A stretch of 53,950 bases of DNA from Phycisphaerales bacterium (GCA_020853095.1 JADYZN010000054.1:1-53950), one strand, 5' to 3'; positions 3,192-53,833 are shown, numbered from the stretch's first letter. A program made the numbers and translations. The notes: a model not told the origin generated them from the letters alone.

Positions 3192-5834
3192 ATGCGGCCG
3201 GTTTGGTGTTTCATTTTGATGCTGATGGCAGCCGTGACGGCCTTCGCACAGCCGGCGGAGGTCAGCCGTATTCTGCGCAACATCGATTTTGAGGAGCGCA
3301 GCCTCGGCAACGCCGAAGACCTGCCTATGCACTGGGCCAAGATCGCCGGCGTGAATTTCCCCCACTATATCAATGCGAAATTATCGACCGACCGCTGCCA
3401 TGGGGGCAGATATTCCTTTCGTTTTGACTTAAACGGCGGGTCGCTGGCATATCGGTACGATCCAGGCCAGATTCGCGTCATCACCGGCGCCCATTACCGC
3501 GTGGAAGGGTGGGTTCAAACCACCGTGCTGCCCCATGCGCGGGCAAGACTCACGGCCTATTTCACGGACCTGGATGGCCATCCGCTGACGGAAACCATTC
3601 ACCATTCGGAATTGTACGCCGCCAAGGCCGGACAGACCGGCTGGCATCAGTTGTCGGTGGAATTAACGCCGCAAACCACCGAGGCGGCCTACCTGGTGCT
3701 GGAGATCGGCCTGCTTCAACCGCAACAATGGGAAAGCACAACCCTTGGCCAACGGGCACTTTATGAGCAGGACATTTACGGCTCAGCCTGGTTTGATGAC
3801 ATCACCGTTTCACAGGTGCCACAGGTCACGCTCAGCACGGATCGGCCGGGAAACATCTTTCGACTAAGCGATCTGCTTCGTTTGCAAGTGCTGGTCAATG
3901 ATCGATTTACGGATGATCTTTCCGCGCAACTGCTGATTCAGGATGCCGTTGGGAACAACGTTTATCAGCGAAGCGGGGCGCTGGACATGAGCGCCGCCCA
4001 GACGCTTGGGCCGGGTCAGAAACGTATGTCCTTGTTGTTGCCGGACTTAAAACCAGGTTGGTACGAGGCGATGCTGGTCATGTCCAGTCAGGGACAATTG
4101 GTGGGTCAGCAGACATTGGATTTGGTTCGATTGGCCGATGAAGCGCCGTTTTCCGTGCCGGATGACCGATTCGGGATTATCGCAACCGATTTGCCAATTG
4201 AAGGGTGGGCCGAGCTGCCGAAGATATTGCCTTATCTTGGGACCGGCCGGGTGAAACTCGCGGTCTGGAGCAAACAAGGGGACATCCAGCAGACGGACTC
4301 GGCGGCGTTTGATGAGTTGCTGGAGCAACTTTCATCGCTGGGGATCACGCCGACCGCGTGCTTGGTTGATTTGCCGCCGAGGATTGCCGCCAAGGTGGGA
4401 GGAAACGACTGGACGAATTTATTAAGGGTGAATTCGGAACTCTGGCAGCCGCAACTCGCCTATCTGCTGGCCCGCCACGCCAACCATCTGGAACGTTGGC
4501 AACTGGGGGATGATGGAACCGATGCGTTTGTGAACGATCCGAAGATGCGGGAGGTCTATTCCCGTGTGTATGAGGAATTTGCGAAGTTGATTCAATCGCC
4601 CGATCTGGCGATGCCCTGGCCGGCGTGGTTTGAACTGGAAGGGCAGCTTCCGGCGACGGTGGCGCTTTCGGTGCCTCCATCGGTTCTGCCATCGCAGTTG
4701 CCGTTGTACATGCAGGATCTGAAAGGTCATGAGGGGCACAATCTGTCGATCAGCCTGCAACTGCTGGATCGGGGGCAATATGGTCGGGAAATGCAGATTC
4801 GCGACCTGGCGCAACGGGTGATCTATGCGTTGGCGGCCGACGCCCGAAGGATCGACCTGCCGCTGCCCTTTGCCGTTCGTCGTGAAAACGAGCAGGTGGT
4901 TCGCCAGCCCAAGGAACTGCTGATGGTGATGCGGACCTTGATCACCACGCTGGGAGACAGCCAGTATCACGGAAAATTGCCGCTGGCGGACGGGGTGGAG
5001 GCATTTTTATTCGAAAAAAACGGCCAGGGCATTCTCGCCCTGTGGGACCGGGGCAACGAGCCGTCCGTGCGGCAACTGGCGATCAATCTTGGGAAACATC
5101 CCTACGCGCTGGATCTGTGGGGCAATATCACGCCGCTGGCCCGCCCGACCGGGGATTCCAGGGTGGGTACGGTTTCGGTGACGGTTGGGCCGACGCCGAT
5201 CTTTCTGATGGATGTCGATGCCCAACTGGCGCAATTGCGGGCGAGCATCACGCTGGACCGGCCGTTGATCGAATCCAGTTTTCAGCCGCACACCCGCCAT
5301 ATTCGGTTCATCAACCCGTATCGGCAGGCGATCGGCGGCACGTTCAAACTCAAGGCCCCGCCCGGATGGACGGTCAACCCGCCGACCAACGTCTTCACGC
5401 TCAATCCCGGGGAAACGTTTGACCGGGAGATCACCATCGAGTTCCCGTACAACAGCTTTGCTGGCCCGAAGGTGATCGAGGCGGAATTCCTGGTGCAGGC
5501 CGACCGCAACTCGACGTTCACCGCGCCGATCGTGTTGAATCTGGGGTTGTCGGATGTGGGGATGCAATCGCTGGCGCTGCGGGATGGGAATGATGTGCTG
5601 ATTCAGCAGATCATCAGCAATTATGGGGACAAGCCCATCGACTACATTTCGTTTGCCATCTTCCCCGGACAGGCGAGACAGGAACGACTGGTGACCAATC
5701 TCGGCCCCGGCCGCACCACGATCAAACGGTACAAATTCTCCAACGTCCAGCTTTCGCCGGGCGCGACGGTGCGGGTGGGCGTCAAGGAACTGGAAGGAAC
5801 GCGCATCCTCAACGAGGAAGTACCCGTGCAGTAG
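3192..5834 (+). CDS. Large secreted protein with carbohydrate-binding-like N-terminus and NEW3-like C-terminus
   Basis: 880 residues. Signal peptide at 1-19 (hydrophobic FILMLMAAVTAFA then Q). Residues ~25-205 (NIDFEERSLGNAEDLPMHW ... SAWFDDITV) look like a CBM4/9-type beta-sandwich. A second beta-rich segment follows (~210-310), then a TIM-barrel-like middle region (~320-620) without an identifiable catalytic pair. Residues ~700-790 (APPGWTVNPPTNVFTLNPGE) resemble the NPCBM-associated NEW3 beta-sandwich of secreted glycosidases. I infer an exported polysaccharide-related protein. It follows sat by 42 bases, but shared function is unproven. Confidence 0.7.
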   Translation: MRPVWCFILMLMAAVTAFAQPAEVSRILRNIDFEERSLGNAEDLPMHWAKIAGVNFPHYINAKLSTDRCHGGRYSFRFDLNGGSLAYRYDPGQIRVITGAHYRVEGWVQTTVLPHARARLTAYFTDLDGHPLTETIHHSELYAAKAGQTGWHQLSVELTPQTTEAAYLVLEIGLLQPQQWESTTLGQRALYEQDIYGSAWFDDITVSQVPQVTLSTDRPGNIFRLSDLLRLQVLVNDRFTDDLSAQLLIQDAVGNNVYQRSGALDMSAAQTLGPGQKRMSLLLPDLKPGWYEAMLVMSSQGQLVGQQTLDLVRLADEAPFSVPDDRFGIIATDLPIEGWAELPKILPYLGTGRVKLAVWSKQGDIQQTDSAAFDELLEQLSSLGITPTACLVDLPPRIAAKVGGNDWTNLLRVNSELWQPQLAYLLARHANHLERWQLGDDGTDAFVNDPKMREVYSRVYEEFAKLIQSPDLAMPWPAWFELEGQLPATVALSVPPSVLPSQLPLYMQDLKGHEGHNLSISLQLLDRGQYGREMQIRDLAQRVIYALAADARRIDLPLPFAVRRENEQVVRQPKELLMVMRTLITTLGDSQYHGKLPLADGVEAFLFEKNGQGILALWDRGNEPSVRQLAINLGKHPYALDLWGNITPLARPTGDSRVGTVSVTVGPTPIFLMDVDAQLAQLRASITLDRPLIESSFQPHTRHIRFINPYRQAIGGTFKLKAPPGWTVNPPTNVFTLNPGETFDREITIEFPYNSFAGPKVIEAEFLVQADRNSTFTAPIVLNLGLSDVGMQSLALRDGNDVLIQQIISNYGDKPIDYISFAIFPGQARQERLVTNLGPGRTTIKRYKFSNVQLSPGATVRVGVKELEGTRILNEEVPVQ

Positions 5835-5851
5835 GGCCTTGTTCGCTGACG

Positions 5852-5863
5852 GCCGCATGCGGC
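5852..5863. terminator. Possible bidirectional terminator hairpin between convergent genes
   Basis: GCCGCATGCGGC, a 12-bp palindrome, sits in the 46-bp gap between two converging genes. There is no T-run on either side, so this is only a weak candidate. Confidence 0.25.
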
Positions 5864-5880
5864 TGGTCCGTGTCCGCGTT

Positions 5881-7086
5881 TTATCCCAGTTTCTTCAAAA
5901 ACTCCCCGATCCGGTCGATTCCCTTGTCAATCTGTTGCTGGCTGGTCGCGAAACTGAGACGGACGTGGGTGTCAAAGCCGCTGTCGTTGCCGGGGACGAC
6001 CGCGACGTGGTTTTGTTCGAGCAACGCGGCCGAGAAGCTGACCGCATCGGTGATTTTCACGCCGCCGGCTGATTTGCCGAAGTAGGCGCTGACGTTGGGG
6101 AAGCAATAAAACGCCCCCTGTGGGCGGACGCAGGTGACCTGTGGCAGGTCGGACAGGCGCTGCCACATGTGCCGGCCCCGTTTTTCGAACTGTTGCCGCA
6201 TGGATTCAACGCTCTGTGCCCCGCGCGGATCGGTCAACGCGGTGGCGGCGGGGTGTTGCGTGAAGCTGGTGATGTGGCTGGTCATCTGCGATTGCAGCTT
6301 GTTGATCGCGTCGATGGCCACCTGCGGGCCGCCGATGTATCCGATGCGCCAACCGGTCATGGCGAAGCTCTTGGAATGGCAGTTGAACGTCAGCGTGCGT
6401 TCGATCAGCGAAGGGTGAAGCGTGGCGAAGCTGACGAATTTCAGGCCGTCGTACACCAGCTTTTCGTAAATTTCGTCGCTGAAGACGATCAGGTTGGGAT
6501 GCCGTGCAACGACCTCGGCCAATGCTTTAAGCTCATCGGGCGTATAGGCGTGGCCGCCGGGGTTGGAAGGGGAGTTGATCAGGAAAATCCGGGTTTTCGG
6601 CGTGATCGCCTTTTCCAGTTGGTCCGGCGTGATCTTGAACCCGTTGGATTCTTCGCCGCGAATGAAGCGTGGCGTCCCGCCGGCCAGTTTGACCTGTTCG
6701 GGATAGGAGACCCAGTAGGGGGATGGGATCAGACATTCATCGCCGGGATTCAACAGGGCCATGAAGGCCATGTAGAGGCAATGCTTGCCGCCGGCGCCGG
6801 TGGTGATCTGCTGGGGTTTGTAGGGAAGATTGTTGTCCCGGTTGAATTTTTCGGCGATGGCCGCCTTCAGTTCGGGATAGCAGGGGGTCGGGGTGTATTT
6901 GGTCTGCCCTTTGTCCAGGGCGGTTTTGGCGGCCTCCTTGATGAAGTCCGGCGTGTCAAAATCCGGTTCGCCCGCCCCGAACCCGACCACGTCCACGCCC
7001 GCTTTTTTGAGCGCGTTGGCCTTGGCGCTGACGGCCAGGGTGATCGACTCGGAAACCAGTTTCATCCGCTCGGCCAGGGGGAACAT
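5881..7086 (-). CDS. Pyridoxal-phosphate aminotransferase, aspartate aminotransferase-like (class I, subgroup Ib)
   Basis: 401 residues from the ATG at 7086, chosen because GGAG lies nine bases upstream; an in-frame ATG at 7101 would add five residues. Transfers an amino group between an amino acid (probably aspartate) and 2-oxoglutarate in the cytoplasm. Visible family marks: GFGAGEPDFDTPDFI near the N-terminus, NSPSNPGG (substrate and PLP phosphate region), FSDEIYEKLVYDG with the PLP-contacting Asp and Tyr, and SKSFAMTGWRIGY with the Schiff-base lysine. VRLSFATS near the C-terminus carries the carboxylate-binding Arg. Exact substrate is inferred from the subgroup. Confidence 0.9.
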   Translation of the reverse strand: MFPLAERMKLVSESITLAVSAKANALKKAGVDVVGFGAGEPDFDTPDFIKEAAKTALDKGQTKYTPTPCYPELKAAIAEKFNRDNNLPYKPQQITTGAGGKHCLYMAFMALLNPGDECLIPSPYWVSYPEQVKLAGGTPRFIRGEESNGFKITPDQLEKAITPKTRIFLINSPSNPGGHAYTPDELKALAEVVARHPNLIVFSDEIYEKLVYDGLKFVSFATLHPSLIERTLTFNCHSKSFAMTGWRIGYIGGPQVAIDAINKLQSQMTSHITSFTQHPAATALTDPRGAQSVESMRQQFEKRGRHMWQRLSDLPQVTCVRPQGAFYCFPNVSAYFGKSAGGVKITDAVSFSAALLEQNHVAVVPGNDSGFDTHVRLSFATSQQQIDKGIDRIGEFLKKLG

Positions 7087-46049: not shown

Positions 46050-46077
46050 TTGACACGACAAAAAATTGGGGTATATT
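46050..46077 (+). promoter_or_regulatory. Sigma-70-type promoter of the LacI-type regulator
   Basis: TTGACA (46050-46055), a 16-base spacer and TATATT (46072-46077). The inferred start (~46084) coincides with the first of four phased repeats. Confidence 0.7.
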
Positions 46078-46083
46078 TTGGCA

Positions 46084-46151
46084 ACGATGTCAATATGGCT
46101 ACGATGCCAGATTGACGACGATGCAATTTTGACGACGATGCCGAACATGAG
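46084..46151 (+). repeat. Four 17-bp-phased direct repeats (ACGATG) at the transcription start
   Basis: ACGATG begins at 46084, 46101, 46118 and 46135, exactly 17 bases apart; copies 2 and 3 also share TTGACG at their ends. The array covers the inferred transcription start and the candidate start codons of the regulator gene. An operator array for tandem binding is the most likely reading. Confidence 0.7.
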
Positions 46152-47205
46152 CCAAACCGTCACGCCATCGAAATTGGAACAGATCGCCAGGGAGGCCGGA
46201 GTTTCCGTCCGGACCGTTTATCGTGTCCTTCAGGGGGAGAACAAGGAAAACTGGCCCAGTTCCAGCAAGCGCGGGCAACTGATCCGGAAAATATCGCAGA
46301 AGATCAACTTTGCCCCGGATGCCAACGCCCGAAGCCTGCGCAATGGCAGGAAGATGCAGATCGCGGTGTTGCTGCGGAACACCGAAGGGGGGTCCTATCT
46401 GGAGCACTATCCCGAAGCGTTTGAGATCATCCTGGGGATCAATGAGACGTTGGAGCAGGAGGGGTATTGCACCACGCTGGCGACGCTGGGGGATGTTTTG
46501 CATCCCCGCAACGCCCACTCGCGCATCTTCCGCGAGCGGATGGTGGATGGGCTGATCGTCATCAGCCAGATGCCCGACAACGTTCTGGATGCGGTGGGCA
46601 AACTGGCCCCGACGTGCCTTTGGGTTCACTCCAACGTCTGGCGGGAAAAAAACTGCATTCGGCGGGATGAAATTTATGCCGGCCAAACGACCGCCGGTGC
46701 GCTGGTGGAGTTGGGTTATCAAAAACTCGTCTGGCTGGGCCCGCCGCAGGAGGACAACCGGCACTACAGCGAAATGGAGCGGTTGGAGGGTGTGCGGGAA
46801 GTCGCCGCCCAGAGCGGAATCCCGCTGACGGAATTCACGGCCAATGACGCGGCGGAACTGGCCGCCCAGGGCCGGGAACTGGCCAAATACTTCGATCCGC
46901 GGACGGCGTTTGTCGCCTATTCATCGCGCTATGCCCAGTGGCTGACGGCATGTGCCACCAGGATGAGGCGGATCGCGCCGGAGGATTTCGGGCTGGGGTG
47001 CTGCGACGATTCGCGGCAGGTCGAAAGTTTCTGGCCCGAATTGAGCCGGATGGGGTTCAATCAATTTGAACTGGGCCGACGGGTCGGCGCCATGATGCTG
47101 GAGAATCTGTCCAGCGGCCATGGTTCTGACAGCCAGCGGGTTCGTGAAGCATGGATCGCGGGCAAAACGGCCCGCGCAGGGTCCGCCCCGCGGACCATGA
47201 ATTGA
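46138..47205 (+). CDS. LacI-type transcriptional regulator
   Basis: 355 residues from the ATG at 46138; in-frame ATGs at 46087 (leaderless) and 46147 are alternatives and none has a ribosome site. LacI-like helix-turn-helix LEQIAREAGVSVRTVYRVLQ near the N-terminus, then a hinge (INFAPDANARSLRNGR) and a sugar-sensor domain (QIAVLLRNTEGGSYLEHYPE; MVDGLIVISQMPDNVLDAVG; YQKLVWLGPPQED). The last ~26 residues are encoded within a duplicated leader repeat and may not be ancestral. Likely controls the PEP-CTERM and glycosidase genes downstream, and itself through the phased repeats. Confidence 0.88.
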   Translation: MPNMSQTVTPSKLEQIAREAGVSVRTVYRVLQGENKENWPSSSKRGQLIRKISQKINFAPDANARSLRNGRKMQIAVLLRNTEGGSYLEHYPEAFEIILGINETLEQEGYCTTLATLGDVLHPRNAHSRIFRERMVDGLIVISQMPDNVLDAVGKLAPTCLWVHSNVWREKNCIRRDEIYAGQTTAGALVELGYQKLVWLGPPQEDNRHYSEMERLEGVREVAAQSGIPLTEFTANDAAELAAQGRELAKYFDPRTAFVAYSSRYAQWLTACATRMRRIAPEDFGLGCCDDSRQVESFWPELSRMGFNQFELGRRVGAMMLENLSSGHGSDSQRVREAWIAGKTARAGSAPRTMN

Positions 47206-47319
47206 AACAACGGTCCGCGAGGCGGACCCTGTGAAACAAAACTCAACGCGGCCGGCGGGTGTTCCGCCGGCGATGTTTGGGTGGCACTTCTTTGAAAGGA
47301 AGGCACGTTATGGAGAGGA
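47126..47319 (+). repeat. 194-bp direct repeat, copy 1 (structured leader of PEP-CTERM gene 1)
   Basis: Runs from the 3' end of the regulator gene to the first codons of PEP-CTERM gene 1. It has only two differences from 48102-48295. It contains three RNA hairpins: CGCGGGC/GCCCGCG; a ~20-bp stem (CAGGGTCCGCC-C-CGCGGACC with GGTCCGCG-A-GGCGGACCCTG); and GCCGGCGG/CCGCCGGC. It ends with AAAGGAAGG before the ATG. Confidence 0.9.
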
Positions 47320-47993
47320 ATGTTATATCGGGAATTCGGTCAATCACATTGGGAGCGGCAGCCATCGGGATTATTTCGGTGGTAGCGCAGGCGGCGCCGA
47401 TCACGATCCTCAATCCAAGTTTTGAAGATCGCAATACAAATTATAACCCTTGGGCATTTAGGATGGTGACTGGGACGGACTCCTGGACGGAAGATACCGG
47501 GAACGTTTATGTGGAGTATACGGGGGCATCACTTGGCGGTACGCAGGATGGTCTCAACGATGTCCTCTTCGATCAGGGAGCCTATGGCAAGTTCCATCAA
47601 ACGCTGACCGCCAGCGTGGACACCAGTAAGACATACGAGCTTAAATGGCTGGGCGGAACAATATCCACTGGTACCGTTCAAGGCGGCTATATCGTGAGAT
47701 TATACGCCGGCGCCAATGTGGTTGCATCCCTGGTGCAGAACCCGGGCGATCTTAGCGTGGGAACATTGTCCGAGAAGACTCTGAATTACACGCCACAACC
47801 AGCGGATTCCGGCTTGTTCAAGATCGAAGTGGAGAGATTGGGTCTATCCGGTCCCCAATCTGGCTCCGTCAATGGGTACGTCAATGTGGACAATTTCCGC
47901 ATGAATGAGACTGCCGTTCCCGAACCGGCATCGATGGCGCTGCTGGGTCTGGGAGCCAGCGCTCTGGTGATGCGTCGTCGTCGCATGGCCTGA
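47310..47993 (+). CDS. PEP-CTERM anchored secreted protein (paralogue 1)
   Basis: 227 residues from the ATG at 47310 (AAAGGAAGG upstream). Signal peptide ITLGAAAIGIISVVAQA, then a beta-sandwich beginning APITILNPSFED and including LTASVDTSKTYELKWLGG and TLNYTPQPADSG, like carbohydrate-binding-type domains. The C-terminus is the exosortase sorting signal VPEPASMALLGLGASALV followed by MRRRRMA. Paralogue of the next gene: identical sorting signal, similar core plan, divergent loops. Presumed surface or matrix protein; exosortase is not in the window. Confidence 0.9.
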   Translation: MERNVISGIRSITLGAAAIGIISVVAQAAPITILNPSFEDRNTNYNPWAFRMVTGTDSWTEDTGNVYVEYTGASLGGTQDGLNDVLFDQGAYGKFHQTLTASVDTSKTYELKWLGGTISTGTVQGGYIVRLYAGANVVASLVQNPGDLSVGTLSEKTLNYTPQPADSGLFKIEVERLGLSGPQSGSVNGYVNVDNFRMNETAVPEPASMALLGLGASALVMRRRRMA

Positions 47994-48010
47994 TTGCGAT
48001 GGTTTTATCC

Positions 48011-48041
48011 CGCCGCCTCCGGTTCATCGCCGGAGGCGGCG
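48011..48041 (+). terminator. Hairpin after PEP-CTERM gene 1
   Basis: CGCCGCCTCCGG and CCGGAGGCGGCG form a perfect 12-bp stem around TTCATCG, 18 bases after the stop codon. The same hairpin recurs after PEP-CTERM gene 2. There is no T-run, so partial termination or 3'-end protection is possible. Confidence 0.5.
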
Positions 48042-48044
48042 CTT

Positions 48045-48097
48045 GTAGGGTGGGCAATGCCCACCAGAGCGAAGTGGTGGGCTGAAGCCCACCCTAC
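48045..48097. repeat. GTAGGGTGGGC palindromic intergenic repeat, copy 1
   Basis: GTAGGGTGGGCAATGCCCACC faces GGTGGGCTGAAGCCCACCCTAC across a short AGAGCGAAGT spacer. It belongs to a class of widespread bacterial intergenic palindromes. Confidence 0.75.
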
Positions 48098-48101
48098 GAA
48101 A

Positions 48102-48181
48102 CTGACAGCCAGCGGGTTCGTGAAGCATGGATCGCGGGCAAAACGGCCCGCGCAGGGTCCGCCCCGCGGACTATGAATTGA
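48102..48181 (+). pseudogene. Duplicated 3' end of the LacI-type regulator gene
   Basis: This stretch reproduces the last 26 codons and the stop of the regulator gene (DSQRVREAWIAGKTARAG ... APRTMN) with no upstream gene body. It is a by-product of the segmental duplication that copied the leader, or the original repeat that overprinted the regulator's end. Confidence 0.7.
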
Positions 48182-48295
48182 AACAACGGTCCGCGAGGCG
48201 GACCCTGTGAAACAAAACTCAACGCGGCCGGCGGGTGTTCCGCTGGCGATGTTTGGGTGGCACTTCTTTGAAAGGAAGGCACGTTATGGAGAGGA
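48102..48295 (+). repeat. 194-bp direct repeat, copy 2 (structured leader of PEP-CTERM gene 2)
   Basis: 192 of 194 bases match copy 1; the differences are at 48172 and 48244, both C to T. Both lie in hairpin stems and change a C-G pair to U-G. Spacing between copies is 976 bp. Confidence 0.9.
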
Positions 48296-49005
48296 CTCTC
48301 TTATCGGGACTGCGAACCATCGCTTTGGGCGCGGTCGTTTTAGGAATGGGTGCAGCAGTGAATGCAGCGCCGATCACCATCGCCAATGCCAGTTTTGAAA
48401 CCTCTGTTGGTTTGGGGGCGGCTCCTGCGGTAGGCTACTTGGAGGACGCTGCCGGCCACGCTTGGATAAACAATGGCGAGGGTGATAGAAACGCCCCTAC
48501 ACTCTATGTGCGAAATAATCCAGACAATATTATTTCTAATGTGGACGGCAGCCAGTTTCTTTTGCTACTTCCGGGAGTGCATGGCGAGGCCTATCAAAAC
48601 CTGAGCGCCAGCGTCGACACCAGCAAAACATATACGCTTGAGTTTCTTGCCGGTGGGGCTCAGAGCGCCGGAGCCATCGATGGCGGCTACCTCGTGCAGT
48701 TGCTTGCAGGTAGCACTGTCGTTGCGTCCCATGCACAAACCGCGGCTCAGCTTTCCGTGAACACGATGACCAACCAGACTTTGAACTACACGCCGAGTCT
48801 AACGGATTCCGGCGCGTTCACGATCGAAGTATGGCGCATGGGTAATGATAGCGGTACTGACAAAGTGGATGCCGGGAACATCACCGGCTACCTCGGCCTG
48901 GATAATTTCCGCCTGACGGAAACCGCCGTTCCCGAACCGGCATCGATGGCGCTGCTGGGTTTGGGAGCCAGCGCGCTGGTGATGCGTCGTCGTCGCATGG
49001 CCTGA
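48286..49005 (+). CDS. PEP-CTERM anchored secreted protein (paralogue 2)
   Basis: 239 residues from the ATG at 48286, with the same AAAGGAAGG site as paralogue 1. Signal peptide TIALGAVVLGMGAAVNA, then APITIANASFET and a beta-sandwich (LSASVDTSKTYTLEFLAGG, TLNYTPSLTDSG) and the same sorting signal. The first 60-100 residues after the signal peptide hardly align with paralogue 1, while the last ~30 are identical. It probably shares regulation and location with paralogue 1. Confidence 0.9.
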   Translation: MERTLLSGLRTIALGAVVLGMGAAVNAAPITIANASFETSVGLGAAPAVGYLEDAAGHAWINNGEGDRNAPTLYVRNNPDNIISNVDGSQFLLLLPGVHGEAYQNLSASVDTSKTYTLEFLAGGAQSAGAIDGGYLVQLLAGSTVVASHAQTAAQLSVNTMTNQTLNYTPSLTDSGAFTIEVWRMGNDSGTDKVDAGNITGYLGLDNFRLTETAVPEPASMALLGLGASALVMRRRRMA

Positions 49006-49022
49006 TTGCGATGGATTTTTCC

Positions 49023-49053
49023 CGCCGCCTCCGGTTCATCGCCGGAGGCGGCG
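49023..49053 (+). terminator. Hairpin after PEP-CTERM gene 2
   Basis: Same 12-bp stem and TTCATCG loop as at 48011-48041, 17 bases after the stop codon. Its conservation marks the duplicated unit as including the 3' flank. Confidence 0.5.
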
Positions 49054-49056
49054 CTT

Positions 49057-49108
49057 GTAGGGTGGGCACTGCCCACCACGACGGGTTGGTGGGCATTGCC
49101 CACCCTAC
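49057..49108. repeat. GTAGGGTGGGC palindromic intergenic repeat, copy 2
   Basis: GTAGGGTGGGCACTGCCCACC faces GGTGGGCATTGCCCACCCTAC. It is adjacent to the GGAG that serves the next gene. Confidence 0.75.
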
Positions 49109-49118
49109 GGAGTTCGAC

Positions 49119-50756
49119 ATGAAGATGATGTTGGCCAAACTTCTGACGGCGGTTGCTTCTGTTGCATTATTAAACGGCTTGTCGGGACAGGCGTCGGCCC
49201 AGACGAACGTCAATCTCAACGGCTCGGCGATCGGGATCAACAGCGGCATCCTGGGGACGAATTATTCCACTGGCCGATCCTGGCTGCCGACGCTGGGCGC
49301 CAATGCCTATGCGACGGGCGTGGCCGGTGGACTTTTGGCCGACACGTTCGACTGGCAGACGATGGAGGGCGTCCCCTGGCCGACGCTGGGGGTGCTGCGC
49401 TCCATGCGGGATGGCAACCAGACCCCGATCTTCATCGCCAACATCCGCGGCACGGGGACGCACTCCAACCCCTACAGCGTCGGTGGGTTCACTTTCAACA
49501 ACACCGATGTGAACATGCTCTCGGGTTTGGCGGCCAAGTGGGTGCGCTACACCAATTTCATCCTGCCCAGCCTCTACGCCGGCACGCCGGTGAGTGGATT
49601 GCCTGTCACGGACCAGGGAATCCTCAACCAGATCAACGACTTCGGCGAGGCGAGCAACGTGCTGCCGACGGCGGGGGAGGCGGCCGTCCCCACCGTGAAA
49701 TACTGGGAGATCGGCAATGAGCCGGAAATCAAGGTGGGTGGATGGAAATTCACCAACGACCCTTTTCAACTGCCGCCATTTAACAGCTCCAACCATACGT
49801 CGGCCGATTACGTCAGCCGATACACCCAGATTTCCGCGGCCATGAAAGCGGTGGACCCGACGATCAAGGTCGGGCCGGCCATGCTGGACGCCGTCACCAA
49901 CACCGCCCAGGCGCTTCTGGCAAGCAATGCGACGATCGACTTCTGGGGCTATCACCCGTATGACAACCTGGATTCGGTCTTCAAAGCCAACGGCACCCCC
50001 AGCCAGATCGCGGCCATGGAAAGCGAGTTGCGCAGCGTGCGCACGGATCAGATCGGCAAGTACAACGCCCAGGTGCAGGCGTTCACCAACGCCGGGCGCA
50101 ACCCCAACAACGTGCAGTTCATGGCGACCGAATGGAACGCGATGGGAGGCGGCGCCAACCCCAACAGCTCGCCGACCATGTACGGGGCTTTGGGGTTCGT
50201 GGATTCGATCTTCACCTTCGCCAATTTGAAGATGGCCGGGGCCAACTACTGGGGTTCGGTCTCGCCCGATCCGCCCTATTGGGGCTGGACCTATCCGCTG
50301 GCCCAGGCGTGGCAGAAGCTGGAAACGAGCATGGGCAATTCGCTGGTCAGCAGCATCGTGGATGACGCCAACAACCGGCGCATCTACATCACCCGCGACA
50401 CCGCGACCGGCAAGGTCTACATCTGGGGGCTGAATTTCAGCAACTCCAATGACACCAGCATCGCCCTGTCGCTGGCGGGGATGGATCTCTCGGGCAATGC
50501 GACTTTGTCGATCCTCAACGGCGGACCCAACGGCACGACCCTCTGGACGAGCAACAGCACCGCCGTCGGCGACCTGACGGTGGACTGGCGGGATCAGAAC
50601 CTGACGAATTTCAACGCGGATAATTTCAATTTCAGCATCCCCCACGCCAGCATTGTGATGCTGGAGCTGCAGGCGGTTCCGGAGCCGTCCAGTCTGGCGC
50701 TGCTGGGGGCTGGCATGGCCGCGCTGATGGTGCGGCGGAGAAGTGTTTTAAATTAA
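49119..50756 (+). CDS. Secreted glycoside hydrolase (clan A-like) with PEP-CTERM anchor
   Basis: 545 residues from the ATG at 49119 (GGAG at 49109-49112). Signal peptide to ~28 (LNGLSGQASA), then a TIM barrel with acid/base Glu in KYWEIGNEPEIKVGG (Asn-Glu-Pro) and a likely nucleophile Glu in FMATEWNAMGGG; YHPYDN is also typical of GH39/51/79-like enzymes. A beta-rich C-terminal domain is followed by the sorting signal VPEPSSLALLGAGMAALMV and RRR. It probably cleaves a polysaccharide while fixed to the surface. The exact GH family is uncertain. Confidence 0.85.
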   Translation: MKMMLAKLLTAVASVALLNGLSGQASAQTNVNLNGSAIGINSGILGTNYSTGRSWLPTLGANAYATGVAGGLLADTFDWQTMEGVPWPTLGVLRSMRDGNQTPIFIANIRGTGTHSNPYSVGGFTFNNTDVNMLSGLAAKWVRYTNFILPSLYAGTPVSGLPVTDQGILNQINDFGEASNVLPTAGEAAVPTVKYWEIGNEPEIKVGGWKFTNDPFQLPPFNSSNHTSADYVSRYTQISAAMKAVDPTIKVGPAMLDAVTNTAQALLASNATIDFWGYHPYDNLDSVFKANGTPSQIAAMESELRSVRTDQIGKYNAQVQAFTNAGRNPNNVQFMATEWNAMGGGANPNSSPTMYGALGFVDSIFTFANLKMAGANYWGSVSPDPPYWGWTYPLAQAWQKLETSMGNSLVSSIVDDANNRRIYITRDTATGKVYIWGLNFSNSNDTSIALSLAGMDLSGNATLSILNGGPNGTTLWTSNSTAVGDLTVDWRDQNLTNFNADNFNFSIPHASIVMLELQAVPEPSSLALLGAGMAALMVRRRSVLN

Positions 50757-50767
50757 GGTAAACAAGG

Positions 50768-53700
50768 ATGATGAATCGGCGGCATAAATCGAATGGATTC
50801 AAAGCGGCTCTCTGCGGATTGGCGACGGCGCTTGCGTTGGTGGTGAGTGGCACGGCGTGCATGGCCGCACCGGGCGGCGGGCTGAGCCGCGATTTATCGT
50901 TCTACGCCAGCTTCGACACCTCGGCCCAGCCAACGTATGCGCGCGGGGCCGACACCACCACAGGGATGTATCATGCCGCCAAGGGGGTGGTGGGCCAGGG
51001 GACGGATTTGCAATCCGGGGCGGTAAGCTATCTCCAGCCGGGCAATCTCAACCGGGATGCCGGGACGGTGAGCTTCTGGGTCAAGCCGTCGGTGGATCTG
51101 AAGTCGCTGGTCGGGTCGGGGCCGGGCACGCGCAATATCTTCAGCGTGATTAACTTCAAGCTGGTCGCCTACACGAATCTGCCCAACATCCAGCCGGTGA
51201 TTTATTTCATGACCGGCGCGACGTTGCCGAACAAGGATTTTCAGTGGGATTACTCAGCGGCCGCGCCGATTGATTCATTGCCCGCCGGCAAATGGACGAA
51301 CGTGACCCTGACGTACAGCGCCAAGGCGGGACGAAAAACTGTTTACTTCAACGGCAAGCGCGTGGCGTCGGTCAATACGAAGCTGATTGAGCCGGGCGAC
51401 AGCGGTGATTCGTTTGTCCTGGGCGAAGGATTGCCGGGCGATTATGACGAGCTGGCGGTGTGGGGGCGGGAATTGACGGCGGCGGAGATTGGACTGCTGT
51501 CGCGAAAACCAGCGGAAGTGGCGTCGGAATTGACGGCCTATGGCAAGGAACACGTTCGCCAGAAGATCGAGTGGGCCATTTACCCGGAACTGATTTATCA
51601 GAACTTCGCCGATTCGGTCGTGGCGCCCAATGAAGCGCTGGCGTTGAAGCTGCCGCTGGAAAATCGCACGGACAAGGAGCAGGCGGGTGTTGTCACCGTG
51701 GCGGTGCAGGATGTGTGGGATCAGCAGGTTGGGCCAACGCAGAAGTTTGATGTGAAGCTGGCGGCCAAAGCCAAGCAGGAGCTGCCGTTCAAAGTGAGCG
51801 TGGATCGTTTGGGTTCATTCCGCGTGGCGGTGACGGTGGAGGTGGATGGCAAGACACTGGAACGGGATGTGACGACGTTCGGTTGTCTGCCGAAGGATCC
51901 GCCGCCCAGCCATCCGTTTTTTGGCGGGCACATCAGCCAGATCGGGACGATGCCGCAACTGGGCCGGCGGCTGGGGTTCAGCCGCAACCGCGTCCATAAC
52001 ATGACGCAGTTTACCTGGTGGTTTCATATGGAACCGCAACGCGGCCAGTGGGCGATGAACGGGAACTGGGCATATCAGGCGTACATGGACATGGGGTATA
52101 CGCATTACGGCCAGTGGATCTACGCCCCCAACTGGGCGGTGACGCTGGGTGATGGCAAACATCCGTCCGACGAGGCGTACAATTATCCGCCGACGGACAT
52201 CGAGGCGATGCGGGAGTATGTGCGCGAATCCCTTAAACGCTTCCCGGCCATCAAAGAATGGGAAATGTGGAACGAGCCGTACGTGTCGCTCTTCTGGCGC
52301 GGCTCGCCCAAGGACTATGTGGAGCTGTGCAAGGTGATGTACACCGAAGCCAAGAAGGCGCGGCCGGACATCACCGTCTATGCCCAGCTTTTATATGAAG
52401 GCCCCTGGACGCGCGAGGCGATGAAACTGGGTGTGCTGAATTATTGCGACGCCGTTGCGTACCATTTTTATCATGTGCCCAACAACGATCCACAGTCGGC
52501 CACCGAGCCGGCGCGGAAGTTGCGAAAGTTGCTGGCGGACAACGGCAAGCCGAATATGCCGATTCTCGCTTCCGAAGGTGGAATGGACAGCACGACCTTC
52601 ATGCGCGGATTGGATTTTGCGGACATGCCGCCGCAGGAATTTCGCCCGGCGATGAATTACCGTTCGTCGGCCGAGTCGCTGGTGCAGGCGCACGTGGTGA
52701 TGATCGCCGACAACGTGGGCGCGTGGTATTACTACTTCCATCAGCCGGTTGATCCGACTCTTGAAAATGGCCTGTGGAAATATGTCAACTATTCGACGAT
52801 GGAGGTGACCAATTCGCCCAAGCCAATGGCGATTTCGCGTGCGATCCTGGCGTGGCAACTGGATGGCGGCAAGTTTGTTTCGCAGCCCAAGACGGCGGCG
52901 GATGGATTGCGTGCTTATGCGTTTGACCGCGCCGATGGCAGCGCGGTGGCGGTGCTCTGGGCCGAGGATGGGGCGGTGGCACGATTGCACATTCCGGCGG
53001 ATGGGAAAGTGATCGACCTGATGGGCAATCCGGTGCAGACGGCGTCCGTGGAGATCACGCAGGCGCCAGCCTATTTGCATGCGGCGGACCTGACCCGGTT
53101 GCAGGCGATGCTGTTGGACCCGGCGATTGTCACATCCGTGCGCGGCCCGCGACAGAAGGAATCGTCCACGGGTGGCATCCCCGCTCCTCAGAAGATGTCG
53201 CCATTCCCGATCGCCGCGGAATTGGGCATGGGAAAGATGGATCCGCTGGACCTGTCCGGCGTGGCCAATTCCTCGCTGGCCGATGAATTGGCCGGTGATG
53301 GCAAGGGGTGGATGGATGAGGGTCCATACAATGATTTCCGCAACATGACGCCGGGCAAACACCTATGGCTTGGCGCGCCCTTTGTCATCTGTGGAAAAAC
53401 GAATCAGGACAACAACGTCCTGACGATGAAGGGAAGAACGTTTCCCAATGGCCCGCAGGTGGCCGGGCCGATCAATGTTGGCGATCGCGGCCTGCGGGGA
53501 TTGTTCTTCGTCCATACCGCCAACTGGACGGATCAAGGGCAGACGGTCGGGGAATACATCGTTCAGTACGAGGATGGCCAGGAGGTGAAACTGCCGATCG
53601 TGGTGGGCCAGAACATCGACAACTGGTGGTATGACCATACAGATACGGAAGACAGCCGGACCGTGGCGTTCAAGGCCGCCGATCCGATCGATCTCAACTA

Positions 53701-53833
53701 TCCCTATCGATTCCTACGGGTCTGGTATTGGGAAAACACCCGGCCGGAGGCCAAGGTCAAATCCGTCAGCGTGCGTTCACTGAGCAATAACATGACATTG
53801 ACGGTGGTGGCCATTACGGCCGCACTTCATTGA
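50768..53833 (+). CDS. Large secreted LamG plus glycoside-hydrolase-like protein
   Basis: 1021 residues; starts 11 bases after the previous stop. Signal peptide to ~33 (ALALVVSGTACMA). Residues ~40-240 form a LamG/concanavalin-like domain (FYASFDTSAQP ... PGDYDELAVWGREL). Residues ~385-700 form a TIM barrel with acid/base Glu in WEMWNEPYVSLFW and a possible nucleophile Glu in PILASEGGMDS. The C-terminal ~200 residues (from GMGKMDPLDLSGVAN) form a further beta domain. No PEP-CTERM tail. It is likely a secreted polysaccharide-degrading enzyme acting with the preceding anchored glycosidase. Confidence 0.8.
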   Translation: MMNRRHKSNGFKAALCGLATALALVVSGTACMAAPGGGLSRDLSFYASFDTSAQPTYARGADTTTGMYHAAKGVVGQGTDLQSGAVSYLQPGNLNRDAGTVSFWVKPSVDLKSLVGSGPGTRNIFSVINFKLVAYTNLPNIQPVIYFMTGATLPNKDFQWDYSAAAPIDSLPAGKWTNVTLTYSAKAGRKTVYFNGKRVASVNTKLIEPGDSGDSFVLGEGLPGDYDELAVWGRELTAAEIGLLSRKPAEVASELTAYGKEHVRQKIEWAIYPELIYQNFADSVVAPNEALALKLPLENRTDKEQAGVVTVAVQDVWDQQVGPTQKFDVKLAAKAKQELPFKVSVDRLGSFRVAVTVEVDGKTLERDVTTFGCLPKDPPPSHPFFGGHISQIGTMPQLGRRLGFSRNRVHNMTQFTWWFHMEPQRGQWAMNGNWAYQAYMDMGYTHYGQWIYAPNWAVTLGDGKHPSDEAYNYPPTDIEAMREYVRESLKRFPAIKEWEMWNEPYVSLFWRGSPKDYVELCKVMYTEAKKARPDITVYAQLLYEGPWTREAMKLGVLNYCDAVAYHFYHVPNNDPQSATEPARKLRKLLADNGKPNMPILASEGGMDSTTFMRGLDFADMPPQEFRPAMNYRSSAESLVQAHVVMIADNVGAWYYYFHQPVDPTLENGLWKYVNYSTMEVTNSPKPMAISRAILAWQLDGGKFVSQPKTAADGLRAYAFDRADGSAVAVLWAEDGAVARLHIPADGKVIDLMGNPVQTASVEITQAPAYLHAADLTRLQAMLLDPAIVTSVRGPRQKESSTGGIPAPQKMSPFPIAAELGMGKMDPLDLSGVANSSLADELAGDGKGWMDEGPYNDFRNMTPGKHLWLGAPFVICGKTNQDNNVLTMKGRTFPNGPQVAGPINVGDRGLRGLFFVHTANWTDQGQTVGEYIVQYEDGQEVKLPIVVGQNIDNWWYDHTDTEDSRTVAFKAADPIDLNYPYRFLRVWYWENTRPEAKVKSVSVRSLSNNMTLTVVAITAALH

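Follow-up and report, generated by a model that had tools for sequence, protein, structure and literature searches.

Architecture of the Tandem Units

A 53,950-nucleotide stretch of DNA from a Phycisphaerales bacterium (GCA_020853095.1, JADYZN010000054.1:1-53950), hereafter the window, harbors two neighboring genes of PEP-CTERM proteins, each residing in a unit of approximately 1 kb that is present twice in tandem. The window is contig C54 of a fragmented metagenome-assembled genome (G000; 3.6 Mb, 77 contigs, 96% complete), whose nearest relatives in the genome collections are G001, belonging to the same genus, and G018, representing a second genus of the same family. A preliminary description of this DNA had pointed to near-identical flanks enclosing a divergent middle with a period of about 1 kb, and had suggested either an old duplication with homogenized flanks or cassette-like exchange of the middles. 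The features concerned are as follows:

46066..47205, plus strand: open reading frame of a LacI-family regulator (Peripla_BP_3, 1e-14; LacI HTH, 9e-6)
47126..47319, plus strand: 5′ constant segment, copy 1, made up of the end of LacI, the palindrome, the leader, and the opening codons of gene 1; 192/194 identical to copy 2
48102..48295, plus strand: 5′ constant segment, copy 2; 192/194 identical to copy 1
48102..48181, plus strand: dead LacI 3′ stub heading unit 2; in-frame DSQRVREAWIAGKTARAGSAPRTMN*, equal to the LacI end
47177..47231 (copy 2 at 48153-48207), plus strand: 55-bp near-perfect palindrome across the LacI stop codon; RNA fold -46.8 kcal/mol, z -8.3
47253..47272 (copy 2 at 48229-48248), plus strand: leader hairpin CGGCGGGTGTTCCGCCGGCG; a similar hairpin occurs in the leaders of G001 and of the G018 gene on contig C7
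47310..47993, plus strand: gene 1 (u1), PEP-CTERM protein of 227 amino acids; HpiC1-like, 1.2e-12; PEP-CTERM, 1.3e-6
48286..49005, plus strand: gene 2 (u2), PEP-CTERM protein of 239 amino acids; HpiC1-like, 1.2e-14; PEP-CTERM, 1.4e-6
47320..47912, plus strand: divergent middle of gene 1; 60% ungapped identity to that of gene 2, 45% at the amino acid level, synonymous divergence (dS) ~0.97
48296..48924, plus strand: divergent middle of gene 2; the same values against gene 1
47913..48066, plus strand: 3′ constant segment, copy 1, running from the sorting tail through the stop codon and the hairpin (stem at 48011-48041) to the start of the GTAG element; 97% identical to copy 2
48925..49078, plus strand: 3′ constant segment, copy 2; 97% identical to copy 1
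48045..48098, no strand assigned: GTAG-type repetitive palindrome 3′ of gene 1, a dispersed palindromic element
49057..49108, no strand assigned: GTAG-type repetitive palindrome 3′ of gene 2, likewise dispersed

Direct repeats of 233 nt (94% identity, spacing 976) and 214 nt (88%, spacing 1012) flank the weakly similar middles. The block borders, obtained from the alignment and a change-point fit, fall at 47319/47320 (codon 4 of gene 1) and at 47912/47913 (the PEP motif), and the edges are sharp, with a 2dlnL (twice the log-likelihood difference) of 189 for the three-block model versus a single rate. The 5′ block (47126-47319 versus 48102-48295) is 99% identical; the two differences reported earlier for its 194 positions are C/T at 47196 and C/T at 47268. 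Identity amounts to 60% of the ungapped columns in the middle block (47320-47912 versus 48296-48924) and to 91% in the 3′ block (47913-48101 versus 48925-49112). The latter subdivides into a part 97% identical that runs through the tail, the stop codon, and the hairpin into the beginning of the palindrome, with 6 differences in the first 155 bp, and the palindrome end, where identity is 68%. Alignment of the units along their length therefore bears out the uneven divergence described initially, including the recurrence of the sorting-signal end and the 3′ hairpin.

On its left side, the repeat begins within the LacI open reading frame, whose last ~26 codons open copy 1. Unit 2 is headed by 25 LacI codons and a stop, with a translation identical to the LacI end and a DNA identity still at 99%. 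Hence, the segment first regarded as a leader is indeed near-identical in the two units, but in unit 1 a part of it codes for LacI, and in unit 2 this part is a dead LacI stub. Since contig C7 of G018 carries a LacI gene with a comparable C-terminus before a single PEP-CTERM gene, the LacI end is native in unit 1 and duplicated in unit 2. The simplest origin of the stub is either a duplication that is still young or a conversion that took place recently with unit 1 as the donor. The 55-bp palindrome spanning the stop codon of LacI was found in these two units only. The possibility that the leader is a dispersed mobile repeat was rejected, as just two copies are present in G000; comparison of the leader with Rfam returned no match up to an E-value of 1.

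At the other end, the 12-bp stem of the 3′ hairpin is identical between the units, and a GTAGGG palindrome follows it in both. The hairpin was found in both window units and in both G018 members of the gene family and, allowing up to 3 mismatches, nowhere else in the five genomes searched; this confinement rules out a role as the terminator used generally in the genome. The palindrome was correctly reported to follow both units, but it is a dispersed genome element rather than a unit-specific one: similar GTAG-headed palindromes occur on at least four other G000 contigs.

Given that the genome is in 77 contigs and that assemblers may be misled by repeats at the ends, the tandem might stem from the erroneous joining of two alleles of a single gene. 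However, allelic variation yields parallel paths and not a tandem with a junction of its own; the stub has a sharp edge, the junction (near 48083-48101) is unique, each copy has private differences, and the same design is seen in other assemblies. An artefact of this kind is hardly credible.

Separate Histories of the Ends and the Middles

The middles of u1 and u2 have a DNA identity of 57%, share 45% of their amino acids, and agree at 53% of third codon positions, and their dS (NG86 method) of ~0.97 is near saturation, versus ~0.10 in the tail. Synonymous divergence thus varies along the genes. Because of this contrast, together with the 99% identity of a 5′ block containing a dead stub, comparison of the two copies supports separate histories for the ends and the middle of the pair.

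The same data bear on a simpler scenario, i.e., an ordinary duplication whose ends (leader, sorting signal, terminator) were held by purifying selection during fast evolution of the middle. The partial conservation of the leader hairpin and the ribosome-site region across relatives, as well as the constraint on PEP-CTERM tails, would fit it. Still, selection at the protein level cannot raise dS, so the near-saturated synonymous sites of the middle are not its effect; the conserved tract takes in the LacI stub, which is not expected to be protected; and the tails and signal peptides of G018 (see below) track the genome and not the gene type. Simple divergence fails on these grounds and is very improbable.

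Relatives and the Conflict between Trees

Among 26 genomes of the family and 397 of the class, the close members of the gene family number only five: u1, u2, one gene in G001, and two in G018 (designated C7 and C14 after their different contigs). The orthologous loci in G001 and on contig C7 hold one copy each. On C7, a LacI gene orthologous to that of the window is followed by the single PEP-CTERM gene and GH39-like genes; in G001, the single PEP-CTERM gene precedes a GH39-like gene, and LacI follows.

All 15 topologies of the five members were compared by the approximately unbiased (AU) test, the end alignments being short. The middle supports the pairing of C7 with G001 across genera, and all trees uniting C14 with C7 are rejected (p ≤0.0005). 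The ends give the opposite result: every tree with C7 and G001 together is rejected by the signal-peptide codons (p ≤0.012), the tail codons (p ≤0.0011), and the tail plus terminator (p ≤0.019), each of them favoring C14 with C7; the 80-nt leader is compatible with the latter pairing but not decisive. The conflict implies either that the ends were homogenized between the two G018 genes located on different contigs or that one middle was exchanged.

Directly 5′ of the C14 leader (L066:6340-6580), there is a degenerate version of the family 3′ hairpin and perhaps, after it, a degenerate palindrome, an arrangement that could be the remnant of a deleted tandem unit that once stood before this gene. 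A 23-residue LacI-like stretch suspected by eye 5′ of C14 gave no Pfam match.

Recurrence of the Design in Other PEP-CTERM Arrays

The leader of the pair occurs only twice in G000, yet the design recurs with other leaders, in line with the repeat pattern not being peculiar to this locus. The survey covered 74 PEP-CTERM-like genes at the G000 loci included (start codons assigned by a simple rule) and employed BLAST, since end-gap-free global alignment of random pairs was uninformative due to short overlaps inflating identity. In an array of five PEP-CTERM genes on contig C32 (L068:2617-7005), the leaders are 83-91%, the tails 77-86%, and the terminators 82-95% identical, and no similarity of the middles was detectable in the BLAST survey. 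One member is a 92-amino-acid mini-gene comprising only a signal peptide, a short linker, and a tail.

The related array L210 of the sister species G001 (contig C2, minus strand) contains the ortholog of gene g4 of the C32 array, the two middles being 74% identical, together with a gene that ends in the mini-gene tail (GRNLFGH); the gene order differs from that of C32. The leaders of the two arrays group by genome: pairing of g4 with its G001 ortholog is rejected (AU ~1e-14) despite the similarity of the middles. In the tail tree, g4 goes with X and g6 and not with its ortholog, although this is non-significant (AU 0.10). Both L210 leaders carry an insertion absent from G000.

Two dispersed pairs, L154/L182 and L165/L166, show strong homology breaking off inside a PEP-CTERM gene. 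A contrasting case is presented by the tandem GH39-like paralogs in L168 of G000, where the middles are 66% identical in amino acids and the leaders lack similarity.

Further observations concern individual loci. In L165/L166 (G000 contigs C42 and C20), the middles are 36% and the tails 94% identical, with 1.2 kb of downstream DNA at 84% up to the contig ends. In L178/L184 (contigs C37 and C48), the tails plus downstream DNA are 92% identical over 131 bp, and no other similarity was detected between the two. Contigs ending near PEP-CTERM tails (C42, C20, C48, and C37) suggest that further cases may have been broken by assembly. Two blocks of ~103-bp tandem repeats lie beside or within PEP-CTERM genes of G018 contig C18 (L212:3144-3610 and 5740-6365).

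Constant ends around a variable middle resemble an active system of antigenic or phase variation, in which variable middles from a pool would enter an expression site by recombination; the mini-gene nearly devoid of a middle and the different order of the C32 modules relative to G001 could be taken in the same sense. Both window genes, however, are complete and have their own leaders. Silent partial cassettes were not found: in a genome 96% complete, where a copy may have been missed, neither the leader nor the hairpin turned up outside the two complete genes. Such a system is thus very unlikely here.

On a wider scale, it may tentatively be proposed, as a rather doubtful generalization, that the PEP-CTERM arrays of Phycisphaerales form a modular system of surface diversification with the constant ends serving as recombination handles. 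If so, unrelated binding domains would be gained, lost, reordered, and swapped between constant ends, and any domain placed between them would automatically be expressed, exported, and sorted.

Homogenized Ends or a Swapped Middle

The favored explanation, to which a probability of roughly 0.6 is assigned, is an older gene pair with distinct binding domains, the ends of which have been periodically homogenized by homologous recombination, probably gene conversion. The module consists of a leader, a putative signal peptide, a predicted β-sandwich resembling HpiC1 and carbohydrate-binding modules (CBM), a PEP-CTERM sorting tail, a hairpin, and a GTAG element, and is present in two tandem copies; the binding domains would be old and distinct, and the ends, with their roles in expression, export, and exosortase-dependent sorting, would have recently been made alike. 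Homologous recombination between the copies, restricted to the stretches that are still similar, is the most economical shared mechanism and would halt where the middles are too unlike to pair. Repeated homogenization as a general process is favored by the tree conflict in G018 combined with the leader conflict between the C32 and C2 arrays.

The chief competitor is a young tandem duplication of ~1 kb, after which one middle was replaced, by recombination through the shared ends, with that of a paralog elsewhere in the genome or a foreign allele; the youth of the ends would then reflect that of the duplication. This cassette exchange is possible, if distinctly less probable. It accounts in a single step for the LacI stub being 99% identical and agrees with both relatives being single-copy, with a different middle type at the same locus in G001 and on C7, with the u1-like gene at a different locus of G018, and with the abrupt ends of homology within the PEP-CTERM genes of the dispersed pairs. 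However, the putative donor copy is missing from the genome: nothing closer to either middle was found on the G000 contigs, in the 26 family genomes, or in the 397 class genomes. Furthermore, the 3′ ends differ by ~3-4% and appear older than the 5′ ends, which differ by 1%; one duplication alone does not predict such an age difference.

Several points weigh against the homogenization of an old pair. The tree of the middle is undecided between u1 and u2 as sisters (AU 0.23) and u1 with C14 (0.84), so the pair may have arisen before or after the split of the genera. The signal peptides of u1 and u2 have diverged like the middle from about codon 4, so in the window pair homogenization would have affected the 5′ leader but not the signal peptide. 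Conversion is here proposed from the sequence of a single genome of the species, and a recent duplication with one swapped middle would fit the window pair about as well. The core shared by both initial alternatives, i.e., ends and middles with separate histories, is backed by the dS contrast, the G018 trees, and the further arrays; as to the choice between them, the data lean towards homogenized ends, with a swapped middle still fitting.

Predicted Products and Genomic Context

Both proteins score above the cut-offs for the sorting signal (PF07589, 28.6 and 28.5 bits for u1 and u2, cut-off 20.7; TIGR02595, 26 bits, cut-off 16) and for the HpiC1-like domain (PF22825, 48.7 and 55.2 bits, cut-off 27). 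An N-terminal hydrophobic stretch is visible in the sequence and forms a helix in the structure model. The model of gene 2 built from 14 sequences (pLDDT 77.5, pTM 0.76; these being predicted local and global confidence scores) was used instead of an earlier, weaker one from 5 sequences (pLDDT 67). Its structural matches, sought also with Foldseek, are HpiC1-type cyclases (Z 18) and CBM4/CBM16 (Z ~15), and the middle is accordingly predicted to be an HpiC1/CBM-like β-sandwich.

The downstream neighbors of the pair are as follows:

49119..50756, plus strand: GH39-like PEP-CTERM protein (PEP-CTERM, 4.4e-7; Glyco_hydro_39, 4.8e-4, below the cut-off)
50768..53833, plus strand: large Laminin_G_3 (LamG) protein by profile match; a similar 1022-amino-acid protein is encoded in G001

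The predicted fold, along with the GH39-like and LamG neighbors, points to a carbohydrate-binding role of the middles. The pair would then probably encode two surface proteins sorted identically, likely with different carbohydrate ligands. The whole is best explained as a LacI-associated polysaccharide locus with GH39-like and LamG proteins beside the gene pair. Directly 5′ of LacI (46050-46077), there is a strong sigma-70-like promoter match (11/12), and no such promoter was recognized in the leader of either unit; therefore, the locus may form a single operon. The two genes may be co-expressed. Genome-wide, G000 has 73 PEP-CTERM matches and two exosortase genes (PF09721, E-values 1.3e-51 and 1.9e-49).

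Comparison with Known Systems

The GTAG-tagged superfamily of repetitive extragenic palindromic (REP) elements comprises palindromic, dispersed sequences located downstream of genes and includes those of Planctomycetes (PMC3733652). The window palindromes likewise start with GTAG and are palindromic, dispersed, and situated 3′ of genes; the match is at the superfamily level.

The fold predicted for the middles and their Pfam HpiC1-like match liken them to HpiC1/Stig cyclases and to CBM4/CBM16. Identity to these is at most ~20%, and the likeness is one of predicted fold. The context suggests a lectin-like role at the surface rather than indole-alkaloid cyclization.

The window genes resemble known PEP-CTERM/exosortase substrates in their C-terminal PEP motif, helix, and basic cluster. 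According to Haft et al. 2006 (PMC1569441), PEP-CTERM proteins are numerous per genome, undergo rapid gain and loss, and are among the fastest-changing proteins of their genomes, and their tails behave as a modular domain more alike within than between species, from which paralogous expansion of the tail was inferred. The passages considered here do not describe leaders and terminators homogenized at the DNA level with divergent middles between them; a conserved upstream motif of the sigma-54 type, limited to Proteobacteria, is reported in the paper. None of the papers searched combined PEP-CTERM, tandem, and gene conversion. The within-species likeness of the tails is usually ascribed to expansion. 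In the window, the untranslated leader and the terminator are alike along with the tail, and the binding domains keep older histories, which points to recombination via shared ends, by which surface proteins could diversify without loss of expression and sorting.

The closest parallel is offered by babA/babB of Helicobacter pylori, whose ends are alike, whose middle varies, and whose concerted evolution within strains is attributed to gene conversion (PMC3960876). As in this pair (and in sabA/sabB and homA/homB), paralogous surface genes in the window have similar 5′ and 3′ ends around a variable middle thought to bind. The hallmark of ends, but not middles, being closer within a genome is found in the G018 pair by the AU tests, with support from the C32/C2 leaders. 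The H. pylori genes encode outer-membrane proteins for which conversion between loci was observed, whereas the window pair encodes PEP-CTERM proteins and is known from sequence comparison; in addition, its homogenized tract takes in the untranslated leader and the terminator, and its copies are in tandem. By analogy, the window pair would function in the manner of the bab genes, though in another class of proteins and without being a member of the bab family.

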